Source: Verrucomicrobiales bacterium (GTDB taxonomy: Bacteria; Verrucomicrobiota; Verrucomicrobiia; Limisphaerales; F1-12-MAGs170). Taken from it: 34,357 nucleotides of DNA. The stretch covers positions 1 through 34,357 of the forward strand of contig SXMN01000272.1 of the NCBI GenBank assembly GCA_005777315.1, given 5' to 3'. The translations under genes and the position numbers were made by a program. Of this stretch, positions 353 through 9,183 are shown in pieces (position 1 is the first letter of the stretch; every line of letters begins with the position of its first letter). A model generated the notes under the pieces. That model was not told the DNA's origin, did no database searches, and was given only the letters and a program-made list of their open reading frames with translations.

Positions 353-1285
353 TCATTCTCGAGGTGTCGGTGTCCGGGAGGATTCCTGCGCCGCCTTGAC
401 AATCTCATCCACAAGTTCGCCAGGTTTCCACTCGTTGCCGATGAGGATCTTTTGCACCCGCCCCTGGGTGTCCAGAACGGCGGTACGCAGTTTGTGATCC
501 CATTGATCGTTACGGACCACGATTGGAAGATTGAACTGTTCGGTGATCGCATCAATGTCGATCATCGCGCCTGTCACGAAACTCCACTTCTTCGGATCGT
601 ACTCGTAACGCTGGGCATAATTCTTGAGCACGGTTGGCGTATCGTGATGTGGATCGAAAGAGATCGAGAGAAGATGCCAGTTCGTCGGTCCGGTGGTGCT
701 CGCGGCGAGCTGGTTGTAAGCGAGGGAGAAATTGCGCGACATCAGCGGGCAGAAATTAGGTATCGGGCATCTCGTGAAGATGAAGGTCATGACCACCGCC
801 TTCCCTTTGAAATCGGAGAGCCGGATCGATGAGCCCAGTTCATTGGTAAATTGATAATCCGGCACCACATCTCCCAGCTTCAATTCCTCCACCTCCCGCA
901 CAATCCGAACAGGGGGCCGCTCCTGCACGGCTTCCGGCGACGCCGTCGCTGTCTTTTTCAACTGGTCGATCCACGAATCATTTTCCGTGACGCTCAGTCG
1001 GAAGGTTACGGCGTCACCCTCAGAGATGCCTGCCAGTTCGTTTGTGCTCTTCACGCTGAATGGCATCGTCATCGCAGGCATGTAGTCCGGCACCTCGCTG
1101 TGTTTGATGGTGATGGAGCGTTCACTTGACTCGACCTTCCTCACAACTCCGGTAACCGGGTAGGTTTTCACCGCGCCTTCGGTTCCAGGCGAAGATGCTT
1201 TGGCGGGCGGGGCGGGTTTGGTTCCACAACCCGCCACAAGCAGTGAAAGGCAGATGAAAAAAACGCGGCAAATCGGATTGAACAT
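353..1285 (-). CDS. SCO1/SenC-family copper lipoprotein with N-terminal CusF-like domain
   Basis: This is a 310-residue predicted lipoprotein. A signal peptide ends in the lipobox LVAGC with lipid-attachment Cys20. Residues about 40-105 resemble the CusF copper-binding fold, with the Met-rich MPAMTM at 69-74. Residues about 125-300 are a SCO1/SenC thioredoxin-like domain. Its two cysteines lie in CPIPNFCP (Cys173 and Cys179), spaced CxxxxxC instead of the usual CxxxC, and the conserved His is His264 in DHKLRT. SCO proteins deliver copper to, or keep reduced, the CuA site of cytochrome c oxidase, so assembly of a terminal oxidase is the likely role. No oxidase gene lies in the window. The ATG at 1285 was chosen because the signal peptide begins there; the frame is open upstream to 1411 but that stretch has no signal features. 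Confidence 0.9.
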   Translation of the reverse strand: MFNPICRVFFICLSLLVAGCGTKPAPPAKASSPGTEGAVKTYPVTGVVRKVESSERSITIKHSEVPDYMPAMTMPFSVKSTNELAGISEGDAVTFRLSVTENDSWIDQLKKTATASPEAVQERPPVRIVREVEELKLGDVVPDYQFTNELGSSIRLSDFKGKAVVMTFIFTRCPIPNFCPLMSRNFSLAYNQLAASTTGPTNWHLLSISFDPHHDTPTVLKNYAQRYEYDPKKWSFVTGAMIDIDAITEQFNLPIVVRNDQWDHKLRTAVLDTQGRVQKILIGNEWKPGELVDEIVKAAQESSRTPTPRE

Positions 1286-1322
1286 CGTGATAATTTTATC
1301 CCACAGGTCCGCGCAAAAACAA
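1286..1322 (-). promoter_or_regulatory. Candidate sigma-70 promoter for the SCO1 gene
   Basis: On the minus strand TTGTTT (1322-1317) is followed after 18 bases by TAAAAT (1298-1293). The start codon of the SCO1 gene begins 8 bases beyond the -10 box, so a transcript from here would have almost no leader. Recognised by eye only. Confidence 0.35.
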
Positions 1323-1411
1323 CTTTGGATTTTCCTGTGTATGTGCCCTCCACGAACCCACAGTCTCAACACGGAGATTTGGTGAACGCAGTGCGGTGGA
1401 GCCGCACCCAA

Positions 1412-1592: not shown

Positions 1593-2066
1593 GAAATTCT
1601 CGCGGCACGCGAGGGTTCGGATGTATTGCAGAACGGAGCAATATAACCTTTCCTTCCCTCCTTAGCCTCCGTGTCCTCCAAAACTCTGCGCTGAAGCACG
1701 GGCGCACCCCACAGCCAACAAAGTTGATAGTCCCCATGCATCCGCCTTGCGAAAGGAGGCTCTCCGTTGCCCGTTGATAGGGATGGCTTTCCTGCCCGCC
1801 GTGAATGCCGGATGGATGGTCGCATCCTCTACCGATGCCACATGGTGTGGGTGACGCCGATCCCTCCGGACTCCTCTGAAGCCTATCAGAACCTTGCAAT
1901 ACACTCAGTTTTCCGGAACAGTCGGGATGAAGCCAATGTTGGTCCGTTACCGATACGATGAGGTTTTATGCTGAAACTGAATTCTGAGCTTGAATCCACC
2001 CGCTTTTCGTCATCCAACATCGTCTGACGCGCTCACCGCATCGCATGGCAAACAGCTCTTCCAGCG

Positions 2067-3965
2067 TTGGCGTGCGTGGTTGCTTCCTCCGCTGAGCCGA
2101 AGCCCGAGGTGCCCATCCTTGCCAATCTTTCCTTCGAGCAGCTTTCGCAGATCCAGGTTGCCTCGGTATCGAGGCGGGAGGAAAAATTATCAGAGGTCGC
2201 CGCGGCGGTGTACGTCATCACAGGCGAGGACATCCGGAGATCCGGCGTCACGAGCATCCCCGAGGCCTTGCGTTTGTCGCCCGGAGTGGAGGTCGCCCGG
2301 CTGAACTCGCACCGTTACGCGGTGAGCATCCGCGGTTTCAACGGCGAGTTTGCCAACAAGTTGCTGGTATTGCAGGACGGACGATCGCTCTATACCCCGC
2401 TCTTCGCAGGGACCTTCTGGGACGTGCAGGACACGATGTTTGAGGACATCCAGCAGATTGAAGTCGTCCGAGGACCAGGTGGCACGGCTTGGGGAGCCAA
2501 CGCTGTGAACGGAGTCATCAACATCATTACCAAGGACGCGCGGGAGACGCAGGGATCCATGGTCACCGGCGGTGGGGGCGTGGGGGAGCGGGCGTTTGGC
2601 GCGGCGCGGCACGGCATGAAACTCTCCGAGCATTCGTGGCTGCGCGTGTACGGCTCGTGGTTCAGCCGTGATAACACCGACTTTGCAAGTGGCTCGTCGG
2701 CAGGTGATAACTGGCAGCAATCGCGCGGTGGCTTCCGTCTCGATGCGCAACCCTCGGCCCAGAATCATTTCACGCTCCAGGGCGAAACCTATGGCGGACA
2801 CGCCAGGCAGATCATTTTTACAGGTCCGGACGTGATCAACATGCTTGGCGGACATCTCATCGGGCGCTGGCGGCACACAATCAGTGAGTCGTCTGACTTG
2901 AATCTCCAGACCTACTATGATGGCACCCGTCGAGAATCCGGTCAGGGCATCACGGATCAGGATACGTTCAACTTCGAGGGACAACACCGTTTCGCGCTGG
3001 GGAAACGGCAGGAAATCAACTGGGGCTTGAACTACCAGCATACCCAGAACCGCACCGTCGGTGCTTCCGGGCTCGTGTATTCGAGTCCCAATCTGGGCCT
3101 GGACCAGGCCGGCATCTCCGTGGACGACACCCTGACGCTGGTACCAGAGCAACTGAAAATCTCCACCGGCCTGAAGTTGGAACATAATGAATTCACGGGC
3201 CTGGAAATATTGCCCAACGCCCGGTTGTCCTGGACGCCATCCACGCGCCAGACGTGGTGGCTGGCGGCCTCTCGCGGCGTGCGCATTCCCTCCATCGCCG
3301 ACAACGATTCGAGTGCGGTTTTGAACCTGCCCGGCCCCACGACTTTCCAAAGCCTCCCCAACACCGCACTCGATGCGGAAGTGTTGTGGACCTACGAAGC
3401 GGGCTGGCGAATGTCGCCCGCACAGAACCTGTCCCTGGATGTCGCGGTGTTCTTCAATGATTACGACCATTTGCGCACGCGTGAAAGGACCATCTCACCA
3501 GGGAGGATCACCCAGCGTCGGGGCCAGTTGATGACCGGCGAGAGTTATGGTGTGGAACTGGCGACGGGCTGGCAGGTCACCGATAACTGGCGATTGCGCG
3601 GAAGTTACACCCACTTGGAACTGGAACTTCTGCCCGTAGCGGGGAGCACCGATACCGCTTCACAAGCGCAGGAAGGGTTCAGCCCGCAGCATCAATTCGG
3701 ATTTCACTCCGCACTGGACCTGCCGGGCAATGTCTTCCTGGATCCCGGAGTGCGCTATGTGGGTGCGCTCGAAAGCCTGAATGTGTCCAGCTATGCGGCG
3801 TTGGATTTACGCATCGCCTGGCGTCCGTGCCCGCAATGGGAATTATCCGTGGCGGCTCAAAATTTGCTAGACGACCGCCACGCGGAGTTCAAGAACCCGG
3901 TGACACTCCCGGCGGCCAGTGAAAATGGGCGGGTAATCCATGGGAAAGTGACCTGGAGATTTTAG
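2067..3965 (+). CDS. TonB-dependent outer-membrane receptor
   Basis: The product is a 632-residue receptor. An N-terminal plug (about 35-160) contains the signature VVRGPGGTAWGANAVNGVIN near residues 132-151, and a 22-strand-type barrel follows, ending in aromatic Phe (VTWRF), as expected for outer-membrane insertion. It should import a large or scarce ligand using TonB energy; the ligand cannot be read from the sequence. The 5' end is problematic. The only in-frame start after the TGA at 2025-2027 and before the plug is TTG at 2067 (or GTG at 2076). Yet a signal-peptide-like segment (AWQTALPALACVVASSA) is encoded in frame just upstream without a standard start codon. The gene may have lost its true start, use an unusual one, or carry a small sequence error. 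It is followed 15 bases later by a related truncated receptor and then by yfiR and a sensor kinase. Confidence 0.88.
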   Translation: MACVVASSAEPKPEVPILANLSFEQLSQIQVASVSRREEKLSEVAAAVYVITGEDIRRSGVTSIPEALRLSPGVEVARLNSHRYAVSIRGFNGEFANKLLVLQDGRSLYTPLFAGTFWDVQDTMFEDIQQIEVVRGPGGTAWGANAVNGVINIITKDARETQGSMVTGGGGVGERAFGAARHGMKLSEHSWLRVYGSWFSRDNTDFASGSSAGDNWQQSRGGFRLDAQPSAQNHFTLQGETYGGHARQIIFTGPDVINMLGGHLIGRWRHTISESSDLNLQTYYDGTRRESGQGITDQDTFNFEGQHRFALGKRQEINWGLNYQHTQNRTVGASGLVYSSPNLGLDQAGISVDDTLTLVPEQLKISTGLKLEHNEFTGLEILPNARLSWTPSTRQTWWLAASRGVRIPSIADNDSSAVLNLPGPTTFQSLPNTALDAEVLWTYEAGWRMSPAQNLSLDVAVFFNDYDHLRTRERTISPGRITQRRGQLMTGESYGVELATGWQVTDNWRLRGSYTHLELELLPVAGSTDTASQAQEGFSPQHQFGFHSALDLPGNVFLDPGVRYVGALESLNVSSYAALDLRIAWRPCPQWELSVAAQNLLDDRHAEFKNPVTLPAASENGRVIHGKVTWRF

Positions 3966-3980
3966 AAAGGTGCCAAGACC

Positions 3981-4570
3981 GTGAATCATCACGCGCAGTA
4001 TGCTCCACGCCCTCGGCTTCGGCAGGCTGTCGGCCTGCTCGCCAGCCTCCTCTGCTCGTCCGTCCGGTCAGCAGAGCCGCCCATCCTCGCCAATCTTTCC
4101 TTCGAGCAGCTTGCTCAAATTGAAGTGACCACCGCGTCCAAGCGCCCTGAACCGCTTGCCCGCACGCCGACGGCGATCTCGGTGGTCAGCGGCGAGGAAT
4201 TAAGGCGGTCGGGCTCTGTGTCCCTGCCGGATGCGTTGCGGTACGTGCCCGGAATGGATGTCGCCAGGATCAGCTCCGCCTCGTGGGGCGTGGGCTCGCG
4301 AGGGTTTGGAGGTCAGTTCGCAAATCAGTTGCTGGTCATGATAGACGGCCGGTCTGTTTATGACCCGGCATTCAGAGGCGTGTTGTGGGACAGCGCGACA
4401 GTGATGCTGGAAGACCTCGACCGCATCGAAGTGGTTCGAGGGCCGGGTGGCAGCCTTTGGGGAGCCAATGCAGTCAACGGCGTCATCAATATCCTCACCA
4501 AGAGCGCGGCTACCCCCCCCGCTCCGTGTATGGTAGGATGACCTGGAGGTACTGGACTTTTATTTTCTAA
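3981..4570 (+). pseudogene. TonB-dependent receptor remnant: plug joined to last barrel strand
   Basis: A signal peptide (residues about 1-31) and a complete plug domain closely paralleling the upstream receptor are present (for example ILANLSFEQL and RGPGGSLWGANAVNGVINIL). About 450 residues of barrel are then missing. Directly after a run of eight C (4514-4521) the sequence continues, one frame off, with RSVYGRMTWRY and a stop at 4570, matching the C-terminal strand of the neighbour (HGKVTWRF). As read, the frame ends at 4541 after 186 residues; a ninth C would carry the frame through to 4570. An internal deletion removed the barrel. It could be a plain pseudogene, or a small plug-only periplasmic protein. 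Tandem duplication with the upstream receptor is likely. Confidence 0.8.
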
Positions 4571-4762
4571 TGTCTAAATCATCGCACACATGATCACATT
4601 GCAAACTCCAAACGAGACGCACTGCAGATTAGGGAATGATTTGAGGAGATTGAACCAAGGAACCTTCGCTTCCCGGCTGCGGAAACCTTTTGCGAGCAAG
4701 GCATCATTCGAGTCATGGGAGGCAGGGCGAATAAGTTTCGCCAAACACGCTTTTGATCTGAC

Positions 4763-5389
4763 ATGAGATCCAACAGCAAAACCCATCACAACGCCGCGAA
4801 ACGCCGGCATGATTCCCTTCGTGGATGCGGGAGCTGGCTGGCAAACCTGGTGCTCGCGTTTTTCCTTCTGGCGCCTCCGTGCTCCGACGCGGCTCAAGCT
4901 GTGGCCGGGGTGCCCGAATACAACCTCAAAGCAGGCTACCTCATTACATTTACCCAATACACAACATGGCCCACCAATGCCTTCCCTTCGACGAACTCAC
5001 GTCTTGTCATCGGAGTTCTTGGCAACAACCCATTCGGACAGGCACTGGATCAGACAGCTCAGGCCCAGAAGAGCACCCGGCCACTTACGGTGCGAAATAT
5101 CAGCACACCTGAGGAGGCCGCGCTTTGTCATGTCGTCTTCCTGAGCAAGGAGGAAAGCCGTAACGAAGCCCAGTGGCTGGAGGCGCTCAAAGACAAGCCG
5201 GTGCTCACCGTGGGTGAATCCGGCCAGACGATCAAGCGAGGCGGGATCATCGAGTTCGTCATGGAGAACAAGCGCGTGCGATTTGACGCCAGTTCGCGCG
5301 CCATGTCCGGCGCGAAATTGAAGATCAGTTCGCAGATGCTCGGATCGGCGCGCAAAGTTCACAAGGCTTCCACCGATTCAGAGAAATAG
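4763..5389 (+). CDS. YfiR-family (DUF4154) periplasmic protein
   Basis: This 208-residue protein has a basic N-terminus, a hydrophobic signal segment (about 25-40) and a likely cleavage site after the AAQA region. The mature part shows the YfiR/DUF4154 pattern: YNLKAGYLITFTQYTTWP near 53-70, then CHVVFLS, then VLTVGESG, then a GGIIEFVMENKRVRFD stretch and a closing LKISSQML helix. In Pseudomonas YfiR is a periplasmic repressor of the CHASE8 diguanylate cyclase YfiN. The mature protein has a single Cys (Cys122), so the intramolecular disulfides known for P. aeruginosa YfiR cannot form. The stop is 2 bases from the start of the sensor kinase, which implies translational coupling. A 6-bp hairpin GGCGAA/TTCGCC (4726-4742) lies 20 bases before the ATG. 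Confidence 0.88.
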   Translation: MRSNSKTHHNAAKRRHDSLRGCGSWLANLVLAFFLLAPPCSDAAQAVAGVPEYNLKAGYLITFTQYTTWPTNAFPSTNSRLVIGVLGNNPFGQALDQTAQAQKSTRPLTVRNISTPEEAALCHVVFLSKEESRNEAQWLEALKDKPVLTVGESGQTIKRGGIIEFVMENKRVRFDASSRAMSGAKLKISSQMLGSARKVHKASTDSEK

Positions 5390-5391
5390 CC

Positions 5392-8043
5392 ATGCGCCGT
5401 CTGCAAAACATGTCGGTGCGTCAGCGGTTGATCTGGCTGGTCTTGGTTGCGAGCCTGCTGGCGCTGATCTGCGTCATCGGAGCGGTGTCGGCTTACGAGA
5501 TAAACACATTTCTCCCCTCCGCTCAGGATCAGTTGGAGAGCGAGGCGGTGATCCTTCAGGAAGCACTTCGAGCCACGCTCGAGTTCCACGACAGCGACAC
5601 AGCCCGGCGTTATCTGGAGACTCGCCGGGCCATTCCTGAACTCGCAGCAGCCGCTTTGTATGGAAAGGACGGCCAGGTTTTCGCGGAATACCACCGACCG
5701 GATGTCAACATACTGACTCTCCCCACCATTCCTGCTCCGGCAGGGGCTTACTTTACCCCGCGCCAGCTCACACTGTGGCAACCGGTCAGGAAAGATGGGG
5801 AACTCCTCGGCCACCTGGTTCTCATCCGCGACTTGCCGCCGTGGTACCGGCGGTTGCCGCAATACTTCATCATGTTTGTCGCGGTGTCAGGCGCTCTGGT
5901 TCTGGTAGGTGTGACCATCCAACTGGGCGCGAACCGGCATTTCCTGCGTCCGCTCGTTTCGCTCGTCAACACCACCAGCCAGGTGATTCAGCGAAATGAT
6001 TACACCGTACGCGCCGAGGTGCGCCGCGATGATGAGCTGGGGCGGCTTGCCCAGGCCTTCAACCAGATGCTCGAAGTCATAGGCCAGCGAGACGTGGCCC
6101 TCCGCCAGGCCGGAGCACAAATCCAGAAGGTGTTCGACGCCACCACCCAGGTCGCCATCATCGCCACGGACCTTCAAGGAATCGTCACCGTCTTCAACAC
6201 CGGGGCGGAGCGGATGCTGGGTTACCGCGCCGAGGACGTGGTCGGCAAACTTACTCCAGCCGCCTGGCATGTTGCCGGAGAGATCGAGACGCGCGGGGCG
6301 GAACTGGCCAGAACCTACGGCCGCGCCTTGCATGGGTTCGACGTTTTCGTGGAGGCCACCCGCCGAGGCCAATCCGAGGCGCGCGAGTGGACCTTCGTCC
6401 GCAAGGATGGCTCGCAACTGAAGGTATATCTCGCGATCACGGCATTACGCGATGCCTCCAACGCAATCTCCGGCTTTCTGGGCATGGCAAACGATGTCAC
6501 CGAGCGCATACGGGCGGAAGCCGAGCTGCGTCGGAGCGAGGAACGGTTCCGTTCCCTCATCGAGAACGCCTCGGACATGATCACGGTGATCAACTCCAGC
6601 GGGATCATCCGCTTTCAAAGTCCTTCGTCTGAGCGCGTGCTGGGTTACGCGCCTGACACCCTGGTTGGCAAAAGCATTTTCGAGCTGATCCATCCTGAAG
6701 ATCAGACCACGGGACAAGACGCATGGCGAAGAGCTCTCGACAATCCCGGGCTCGCGGTATCCATCGAAACAAGACTACGCCATCAAAACGACCAGTGGCG
6801 GACAATCGAAGCCGTGGGCCGGAGCGTGCCCGAGGAATCGGCGGAGGGTTATCTGATCCTCAATGCGCGGGACGTGACCGAAAGCCGGAAAATGGCGGAG
6901 CAATTTCGCCAGTCTCAGAAAATGGAGGCCATCGGCCAGTTGTGCGGCGGTGTGGCGCACGACTTCCACAACATCCTCTCCATCATCCAGGGCAACATCT
7001 CGCTCATGAGGTTGCAGGACGAACTTTCGGCGGAGATGAAGGATAGCATCACGGAGGTCGGCGAGGCCGCCACCCGTGCGGCCAATCTCACCCGACAACT
7101 GCTCGCCTTCAGCCGCCGCCAGACGATCCAGCGCAAGGAACTCGACTTGAATGAAGTGGTCTCCAATCTCACGCGGATGTTGCAGCGAATCGTCGGAGAG
7201 GACGTCCGCATACAAACCAGCTGCTCGCCGCACCCCGCCCGCATCAGCGCGGACGCGGGGATGATGGAGCAAATCCTCATGAACCTTGTGGTCAACGCGC
7301 GCGACGCCATGCCGCGTGGCGGCAAACTCGTCATCGAAACCGCCAAAGCGGAATTCGATGAAACGATCGTCGAGCAGACCGCCCAGGCTCGACCGGGAAA
7401 ATTCATCAGCCTGAGTGTTACCGACAGCGGCTGCGGCATCCCTCCGGAAACCCTGCCAAAAATCTTCGAACCGTTCTTCACTACCGAGGAGGTGGGAAAA
7501 GGCACCGGGCTGGGCCTCGCCACCGTTTACGGCATCGTCCGGCAGCACGAAGGCTGGGTCAGTGTTTACAGCGAAGTGGGATTGGGGACAACGTTTCGCG
7601 TTTACCTGCCGTACCAATCAGAAGCCACTGAAGTCAGGCCATCGGCACCGGTTGCCGCGCGGGCTCAAAGTGGGAATGAAACCATACTCGTCGTCGAGGA
7701 TGAACCCCAATTGCGAACCCTTGTCCGCCGCATTTTGTCACGCCAGGGTTACAAGATTCTTGAAGCGTCCACAGCCCGCGCCGCCTTGGATGTCTGGAAA
7801 CAACATGCGGGCGAAATCCGCCTGCTCCTGACCGATCTTGTCATGCCCGACGGAATGAGCGGCATGGAGCTGGCCCACATGCTTCTCAATGAACAGCCGT
7901 CGTTGAAGGTCATTTACACGAGTGGCTACAGCCCTGAAATCGCAGGCAAGGATGTACCGCTCCAGGACGGCATCAACTTCCTCGCCAAACCGTTCGATTC
8001 ACACCAGCTATCGCGTGTCGTTCGCACCAGCCTCGACGGGTGA
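5392..8043 (+). CDS. Hybrid sensor histidine kinase with CHASE8-like, HAMP, two PAS and receiver domains
   Basis: The product has 883 residues. TM1 lies at about 11-33. A periplasmic CHASE8-like region (about 38-150) resembles that of YfiN, with the pattern [25 protein letters not shown] and YHRPD. TM2 is at about 156-178, HAMP at about 180-235, and PAS domains at about 245-375 and 383-500. The HisKA domain carries phospho-acceptor His523 in [11 protein letters not shown] (most relatives have DFNN). The HATPase domain shows N, G1 (DSGCGIPP) and G2 ([11 protein letters not shown]) boxes. A C-terminal receiver has acidic Glu769 and Asp770 and phospho-site Asp815 in LLTDLVMPD. It is probably controlled by the adjacent YfiR protein and passes phosphate through its receiver to an unlinked phosphotransfer protein or regulator; no output-domain protein is nearby. 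Confidence 0.93.
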
Positions 8044-8103
8044 TTTCCCAACGCCGGCAGAGTTCTGATCTTACCTTAATCCTGATCCTCCTCTGGATCT
8101 CCT

Positions 8104-9183
8104 TCACAATGCGGTCCGCAGTTCACCCGAGCTGACCTCCCACCGCTTCAGCTCCCTGCCAAGCTCGCGCGGCCAGTTCTCGTCGGTGGCGGTCATGAAA
8201 ACCTGACCGCGACACGCGTGCGCCCGTTCGAGCAACGGCAACAGCCCGGCACGGCGTCCTCGATCCAATTCCCCCATCACGTCATCAATCAGCAACACTG
8301 GCGGCGAACCGTGAAGGTGGCTAAGGTACTCTGCCTGCGCCATTTTGAGAGCAATCACCGCGGAGCGCTTTTGCCCTTCGCTGGCAAATTGCAGCGCCGA
8401 CTTTCCGTCAACAGCGATCACCACTTCATCCCGGTGGGGGCCCACCAAAGTCATCCGCATGGTTCGTTCACGCGAGCGGGACTGGGCCAGCTCGACGGCA
8501 AAGTCCGCTTTCACCGCAGGCTGGTAGCTGACAGAAAATTCCTCCCGTGCCCCGGTGATCTTAAGATACGCGGCTACCGCAAATGGCACGAACTCCGGAA
8601 TCAGCTTTGCCCTCATCCGGATGATCTCCGAACCAGCGCTTTCCAGCTCGGAAGTGAAACCAGCCAATGCAGCTTCGTTCAACACTCGTTGTTTCAGCAA
8701 AGCGTTGCGGGCTCGCAGAGCCTGGGCGTAACGTCGCAACATCCCGAGATACGCCGGATGCGTTTGGGTCAGGAGGAGATCCACGAACCGGCGGCGTCGG
8801 CTCGCGGGTCCCTTCACCAGTTGCAGATCCTCGGAGCAGAAGACGACAGCGCGCAGGATACCCAGATAGTCTGCAAGGCGGCGGACCGGTTGCGAATTCA
8901 GGGTGAGATTGCGCTCCCGGGCTGACCAGTAAATCTTCACCATGCTGGAGGATTGCCCCTCAATCTCAGCGCCGACAAAATATCCCTTGTGCCCGTGTCT
9001 TACCATCTGAGCGCTTCCCACTCCACGAAACGAGCGCAACGTGGCGATGAGGTAGATGGCCTCCAGGATGTTCGTCTTGCCCTGAGCATTTGGACCGAGA
9101 AGAAGATGAAAGCCCGGAGAGAAATCCACATCCAGACGGGCGTAATTCCGAAAATCTCGAAGCCGTAGATGAGCCAGATGCAC
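8104..9183 (-). CDS. recF: DNA replication and repair protein RecF
   Basis: This is a 359-residue SMC-like ATPase of typical RecF length. It opens with the RecF N-terminal pattern LRLRDFRNYARLDVDF. Walker A is GPNAQGKTN (residues 30-38), the ABC-type signature is SEGQKRSAVIALKMAQ, and Walker B is PVLLIDDVMGELD. RecF acts with RecO and RecR to load RecA at gapped DNA and stalled forks. Here it is not beside dnaA/dnaN/gyrB, its common place, but divergent from mreB with 162 bases between. It converges with the sensor kinase across 60 bases. The ATG at 9183 gives the full N-terminal strand. Confidence 0.97.
   Translation of the reverse strand: MHLAHLRLRDFRNYARLDVDFSPGFHLLLGPNAQGKTNILEAIYLIATLRSFRGVGSAQMVRHGHKGYFVGAEIEGQSSSMVKIYWSARERNLTLNSQPVRRLADYLGILRAVVFCSEDLQLVKGPASRRRRFVDLLLTQTHPAYLGMLRRYAQALRARNALLKQRVLNEAALAGFTSELESAGSEIIRMRAKLIPEFVPFAVAAYLKITGAREEFSVSYQPAVKADFAVELAQSRSRERTMRMTLVGPHRDEVVIAVDGKSALQFASEGQKRSAVIALKMAQAEYLSHLHGSPPVLLIDDVMGELDRGRRAGLLPLLERAHACRGQVFMTATDENWPRELGRELKRWEVSSGELRTAL

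Follow-up and report, generated by a model that had tools for sequence, protein, structure and literature searches.

Among the closest described systems is YfiBNR of Pseudomonas aeruginosa and E. coli, in which the periplasmic protein YfiR adjoins an inner-membrane CHASE8-HAMP protein (TpbB/YfiN) with a GGDEF output, and YfiB is an OmpA/PAL-type lipoprotein. Distant homologues of YfiN were described by Malone et al. 2012 (PMC3375315), in the sections that deal with them, as having histidine kinase, hybrid kinase and other outputs, mostly without YfiB. These sections propose an ancient YfiR-YfiN[PAS/HAMP] core and align a pair from Opitutus terrae; they do not mention a TonB receptor. NCBIfam contains consecutive models for a set of three proteins: NF053590 (TOL_0244 TonB receptor), NF053591 (TOL_0243 YfiR-like) and NF053592 (sensor histidine kinase, YfiR-like protein-associated; "HK near YfiR-like"). 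Receptors of this or a similar family have been implicated in the sensing or uptake of long-chain alkanes. TOL_0244 of Thalassolituus oleivorans was up sevenfold on the n-C28 alkane and resembles OmpS of Alcanivorax dieselolei (PMC6304351), and OmpS was reported to be essential for alkane sensing (PMC6304351, PMC9788540, PMC5174103). FecA-FecR-type transducers are the known case of a TonB receptor that signals across the envelope, by means of an N-terminal STN domain, FecR and a sigma factor.

We analyzed a stretch of 34,357 nucleotides of Verrucomicrobiales DNA (the window). It contains a real three-gene cell-envelope signalling unit, encoding an outer-membrane receptor, a small periplasmic protein and an inner-membrane sensor kinase (Table 1). 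The genes are all on one strand in the order receptor, yfiR, kinase, with a receptor remnant in between. The window copy is divergent within a known, very widespread kind, and its extra receptor gene is damaged. The unit resembles YfiBNR in the YfiR fold and in the pairing of yfiR with an adjacent gene for an inner-membrane CHASE8-HAMP protein. In contrast to YfiBNR, its output is a hybrid histidine kinase (HisKA-HATPase-receiver) and not a GGDEF domain, and it has a TonB receptor upstream. No YfiB was found among the adjacent genes, which encode TonB receptors, a SCO1/CusF protein and a RecF-type protein. The pairs of Malone et al. (PMC3375315), from distant bacteria that include O. terrae, have the same combination as the window and also lack YfiB; the window unit differs from the account of them in the cited sections in having a TonB receptor. 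Where FecA-FecR has STN, FecR and a sigma factor, the unit has a kinase together with a periplasmic protein that is soluble. The kinase gene is followed on its 3' side by a RecF-like gene (minus strand) and then an MreB gene. A scan of positions 1850-8300 for promoters and terminators gave no more sites than were found in shuffled sequences.

Table 1. Features of the receptor-yfiR-kinase locus (window positions).
Feature	Positions	Strand	Evidence or remark
SCO1/CusF protein	353-1411	-	upstream neighbour of the receptor-yfiR-kinase genes
Complete TonB-dependent receptor (632 aa), TOL_0244 family	2067-3965	+	Plug 4.2e-21, barrel 7.4e-33 (Pfam)
Plug-only receptor remnant (186 aa), same family as first receptor	3981-4541	+	Plug 2.3e-22 (Pfam)
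Receptor C-terminal scrap RSVYGRMTWRY, different frame	4513-4553	+	family profile, last 13 positions
YfiR-like periplasmic protein (208 aa)	4763-5389	+	PF13689, NF053591
Kinase input: TM helix, CHASE8 (43-144), TM helix, HAMP	5392-6135	+	PF17152, PF00672
Kinase output: PAS, PAS, HisKA, HATPase, receiver	6136-8043	+	Pfam and intact motifs

The first receptor passed the cutoff of NF053590 by a thin margin (649.3 bits; cutoff 645). Its plug begins at residue 41, and Pfam gave no match to an STN domain. The remnant is 55% identical to the first receptor across the plug region and matched only positions 2-143 of the 604 in NF053590. The gene stops after the plug, and no barrel was found in it. The scrap that overlaps its end matched in frame 2 with an i-E of 0.0057 in a search of three sequences, which is weak by itself, and it lies in the place expected. 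The simplest reading of these sequences is that the second receptor lost its barrel through an internal deletion; a misassembly of tandem copies is possible. We rejected the reading of the plug-only gene as a deliberate short signalling protein, which is less likely because the deleted end can still be read, in another frame, as a receptor C-terminus. Since the copy adjoining yfiR has no barrel, the intact receptor of the unit would be the first one. The preliminary description of this DNA placed TonB receptor genes directly upstream of yfiR. This holds for the intact gene, but the gene that adjoins yfiR is broken. Viral contigs scanned with the receptor gave no match. An alkane as the ligand is only a family-based lead, with nothing that links the window receptor itself to alkanes.

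The small protein is YfiR/HmsC-like, as the preliminary description proposed. It matched PF13689 (DUF4154/YfiR) with E = 1.3e-39 across residues 53-197 (136 bits; cutoff 24.9) and NF053591 with 142.2 bits (cutoff 125), and the kinase starts 2 bases past its stop. We made an AlphaFold model from an alignment of 32 relatives (mean pLDDT 86; above 94 in the domain) and used it in a fold search. The top PDB matches were all Pseudomonas YfiR (E 1.7e-9, TMt 0.76). Rhodothermus marinus small substrate-binding proteins (E 4e-5 to 2e-4) ranked below these, as did ABC-type binding proteins. The disulfides of Pseudomonas YfiR, which we take to be C71-C110 and C145-C152, should be impossible in the mature window protein, judging from an alignment of the two. 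The window YfiR has cysteines at 22, 40 and 122. The first two likely fall within a signal peptide that is presumably cleaved, leaving C122, which aligns with Pseudomonas C110, as the lone cysteine of the mature protein. Among 69 relatives, C122 is retained in 56, the position of C145 is a cysteine in just five, and the position of C152 is mostly N, G or R. Thus, a single cysteine in mature YfiR, and with it a redox control different from that in Pseudomonas, had been correctly noted, but it is typical of the relatives in general and no peculiarity of the window protein.

The kinase (5392-8043, plus strand; 883 residues) matched the CHASE8 model PF17152 at residues 43-144, with E = 2.4e-13 and 50.6 bits when the whole protein was searched and 5.4e-15 and 55.9 bits for the segment alone (cutoff 27). 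CHASE8 is followed by HAMP (182-229), two PAS domains, HisKA (515-577), HATPase (622-742) and a receiver (765-877). These Pfam results bear out the domain order first described, a YfiR/CHASE8 pair attached to a phosphorelay-type kinase. The motifs HDFHN (from residue 523), NARDAM, DSGCGI and GTGLGL are all present, as are LLTD and AKPF in the receiver, and the HDFHN box is CckA-like. An AlphaFold model of the kinase input, made from an alignment of 30 relatives, had a mean pLDDT of 90, with CHASE8 (PAS-like strands, 84-147) between two transmembrane helices (9-64 and 149-201). A fold search with the input returned WalK, 3cwf and other generic sensors of the PAS type; the modelled fold is thereby confirmed as PAS-like, though not as CHASE8 in particular. 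Searching PDB sequences with the same region found no CHASE8 relative and essentially only matches to the HAMP region. Although the input aligned over the full length of NF053592 (1-223), its score of 166.4 bits was below the cutoff of 194, whereas the window receptor and YfiR pass the cutoffs of their models; the window differs from the NCBIfam set also in the receptor remnant. Gene order and domains agree with the NF053592 members, and the window kinase would work like them while falling outside the model. The window kinase and YfiR form a pair on a long branch.

Most of the known contact positions between YfiR and YfiN remain hydrophobic in the window pair. The part of Malone et al. on the interface (PMC3375315) assigns contact roles to V160 and F162 of YfiR and to the AAVVF motif of YfiN. 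The window YfiR has V172 and F174 at the positions of V160 and F162, which are hydrophobic in nearly all relatives; a third Pseudomonas contact, L183, is Ser195 in the window. By eye, we assigned the AAVVF motif to A86-A87-A88-L89-Y90 of the kinase. In 69 complete receptor-YfiR-CHASE8 triads, A87 was present in 65 and Y or F at position 90 in 54.

We used two surveys to determine how general the gene order is. Of 58 genomes around the window, mostly from the same order, 22 had kinase inputs above the NF053592 cutoff, often several in each. We examined 47 CHASE8-type kinase loci with their surroundings, from the window, its genome and order-level relatives. In 34 of these yfiR was immediately upstream, usually with a gap of -4 to +25 nt, and about half also had a receptor. 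In the second survey we scanned GTDB genomes with an alignment of the receptor only, to avoid choosing loci by the answer. The best 80 loci were used, and 73 had enough downstream DNA to be evaluated. By their record titles, the best 80 come from Verrucomicrobiota, Nitrospirota, Nitrospinota, Acidobacteriota, Planctomycetota, Gemmatimonadota, Bacteroidota, Armatimonadota, Deferribacterota, Desulfobacterota (in the wide sense), Pseudomonadota and others; most are draft metagenome bins, so that single phylum assignments may err, but the overall spread is sure. In at least 11 phyla, 55 of the 73 evaluable loci had both yfiR and a CHASE8 protein downstream of the receptor. The receptor is a regular component of the unit, the order is conserved far beyond relatives, and the association in the two surveys greatly exceeds chance. 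The other evaluable loci had CHASE8 only (5), yfiR only (2) or neither (11). Receptor and yfiR were 310 nt or less apart in 48 of the 55 triads.

Kinase outputs prevail in this set, and GGDEF outputs are exceptional. Nearly all triads found from the receptor have a histidine kinase with zero to two receivers. Two loci have GGDEF only (L100, L124), and one triad has kinase, receivers and GGDEF (L136); a similar protein is beside the receptor in L092. Given that kinase outputs are common in at least 11 phyla and GGDEF is rare, a diguanylate cyclase ancestor is without support here. We estimated the number of output changes on a quick tree of the inputs, which has weak support and long branches that meet: output class would need at least 30 changes (possible minimum 4, shuffle mean 38.7). 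GGDEF as the ancestral output was rejected as unsupported on the dominance of kinase outputs. The idea that the YfiR/CHASE8 switch was rewired to a phosphorelay as a new event at this locus is not supported, nor is it a novelty. The swap of outputs was reported in 2012, in the sections of Malone et al. on distant homologues (PMC3375315), so the swap in the window was already known, and the three-gene set has its NCBIfam models. Our additions are the survey started from the receptor and the finding of correlated divergence that leaves out the kinase core.

We measured correlated divergence with distance matrices for the 69 complete triads (Spearman correlation and Mantel tests). YfiR correlated with the periplasmic CHASE8 part of the kinase (r = 0.38), the receptor with CHASE8 (r = 0.36) and YfiR with the receptor (r = 0.33; Mantel p = 0.001 for each). 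The HisKA-HATPase core was not correlated with YfiR (r = -0.13) or CHASE8 (r = -0.10), and only weakly with the receptor (r = 0.14, p = 0.06). The core had the highest split-half reliability of the parts measured (0.81), and its divergence does not track that of CHASE8 even though the two share a polypeptide. These distances are most naturally explained by a conserved input cassette in which receptor, YfiR, CHASE8 and HAMP are inherited together, with exchange of the catalytic modules. Because linkage by itself yields correlated divergence, these r values do not prove contact among the three proteins. Covariation between YfiR and CHASE8 columns in 69 pairs reached 0.238 at most, inside the range of shuffled maxima (0.18-0.30).

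We think it probable that YfiR holds the kinase through CHASE8 and that the receptor sets the availability of YfiR; we are more confident of the YfiR-CHASE8 step taken alone and less so of the receptor step. In the mechanism that we infer, from physical binding and the sign of regulation to the role of the receptor, its ligand and the target of the phosphate, YfiR would be exported to the periplasm, bind CHASE8 and set the activity of the kinase, as an inhibitor by analogy with Pseudomonas YfiR-YfiN. The signal through CHASE8 and HAMP would alter autophosphorylation at the HDFHN histidine, and phosphate would be relayed via the C-terminal receiver to an unlinked partner. The TonB-dependent receptor would hold the position of the Pseudomonas lipoprotein YfiB, and its loading or transport state, or a substrate that it delivers, would change the amount of YfiR free for the kinase. 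This scheme builds on the observed domains, catalytic motifs, gene order, correlated divergence and hydrophobic contact positions. The structural matches of the YfiR model and the purifying selection on yfiR also speak for it, and what is reported of TOL_0244 and OmpS is the nearest hint as to function. Against it we counted the lack of covariation above shuffles, Ser195 at L183, the kinase input below its cutoff, the long branch, the broken receptor beside yfiR, breaks in the sister locus and CHASE8 kinases without YfiR. More generally, and tentatively, a TonB-dependent receptor rather than YfiB may be the general outer-membrane switch for YfiR, in a receptor-YfiR-CHASE8-HAMP transenvelope cassette found in at least 11 phyla. 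If so, the cassette plugs into kinases, hybrid kinases and diguanylate cyclases, and there is a second route besides FecA/FecR from a TonB receptor to the cytoplasm. Taken alone, the window copy is unremarkable; a broader importance could lie in how very common this signalling cassette is. Control of YfiR by the receptor would explain how YfiR systems that lack YfiB sense the outside, and would give TonB receptors a way to signal to histidine kinases with neither STN domains nor sigma factors.

It is also conceivable, though rather unlikely, that YfiR controls the kinase while the receptor, a transport gene in the same operon, is under the control of the system and not an input to it. Two-component operons often include their own target genes, and a receptor is missing next to some of the YfiR-kinase pairs (L011, L076, L079, L083). 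However, the divergence of the receptor tracks YfiR and CHASE8 and the kinase core only weakly, and the similar receptor OmpS is reported to be needed for sensing, beyond uptake (PMC6304351, PMC9788540). We consider unlikely a different role for YfiR, as a putative ligand-binding protein that takes a small molecule imported by the receptor to CHASE8 and activates the kinase. The substrate-binding proteins in the fold search, the conservation in the cassette of a receptor that is an importer by family, and the tie of its relatives to alkane sensing (PMC6304351) would all fit such a role, but the strongest structural matches are to the repressor YfiR, whose hydrophobic contact residues are largely retained.

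The orthologous locus of a sister species in the same genus (genome G001, contig C10; L164, 88-4034) has one receptor. This receptor can be read as two open reading frames in different frames, and yfiR, 66% identical to that of the window, has one in-frame TGA; the start of the kinase is 85% identical. The breaks could be decay or sequencing error, the genome being a draft. Differences between the two yfiR genes at the three codon positions (0.22/0.13/0.49) indicate purifying selection since the species split. It seems improbable that the window cassette is a duplicate in decay, with the working version elsewhere in the genome on contig C353: the second receptor without a barrel, the long branch and the breaks in the sister copy would be expected of one, but the window yfiR and kinase are intact with complete catalytic motifs, and change weighted to third positions indicates past selection.

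The cassette on contig C353 (L010, 8261-17297) is a tandem array of receptor, yfiR, CHASE8 kinase, receptor and yfiR, with a phage-type integrase (PF00589) where a second kinase would be expected. Another locus in the same genome (L011, contig C158, 3338-11109) has a receptor, an MpaB/rubber-oxygenase-like gene (PF09995) on the opposite strand, yfiR and a CHASE8 kinase. CHASE8 kinases without YfiR occur in several relatives. Two such kinases (L012, 4265-6967; L013, 83-2269) adjoin neither yfiR nor a receptor and lie beside genes for an ABC-F protein and for glutamine synthetase; the same kinases recur, again without yfiR, in the sister genome (L078, L082).

The end of the receptor gene overlaps the beginning of yfiR by exactly 13 nt in loci from many phyla (L045, L048, L051, L052, L060 and many of L084-L163). 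This could partly stem from the choice of the longest open reading frame; the codons for the C-terminal Trp-Arg-Phe-stop of the receptor would provide the ATG (ATGGCGNTTYTRA). In the SCO1/CusF protein encoded upstream of the window unit, a CusF copper-binding domain comes first and is fused to a SCO1/SenC domain.
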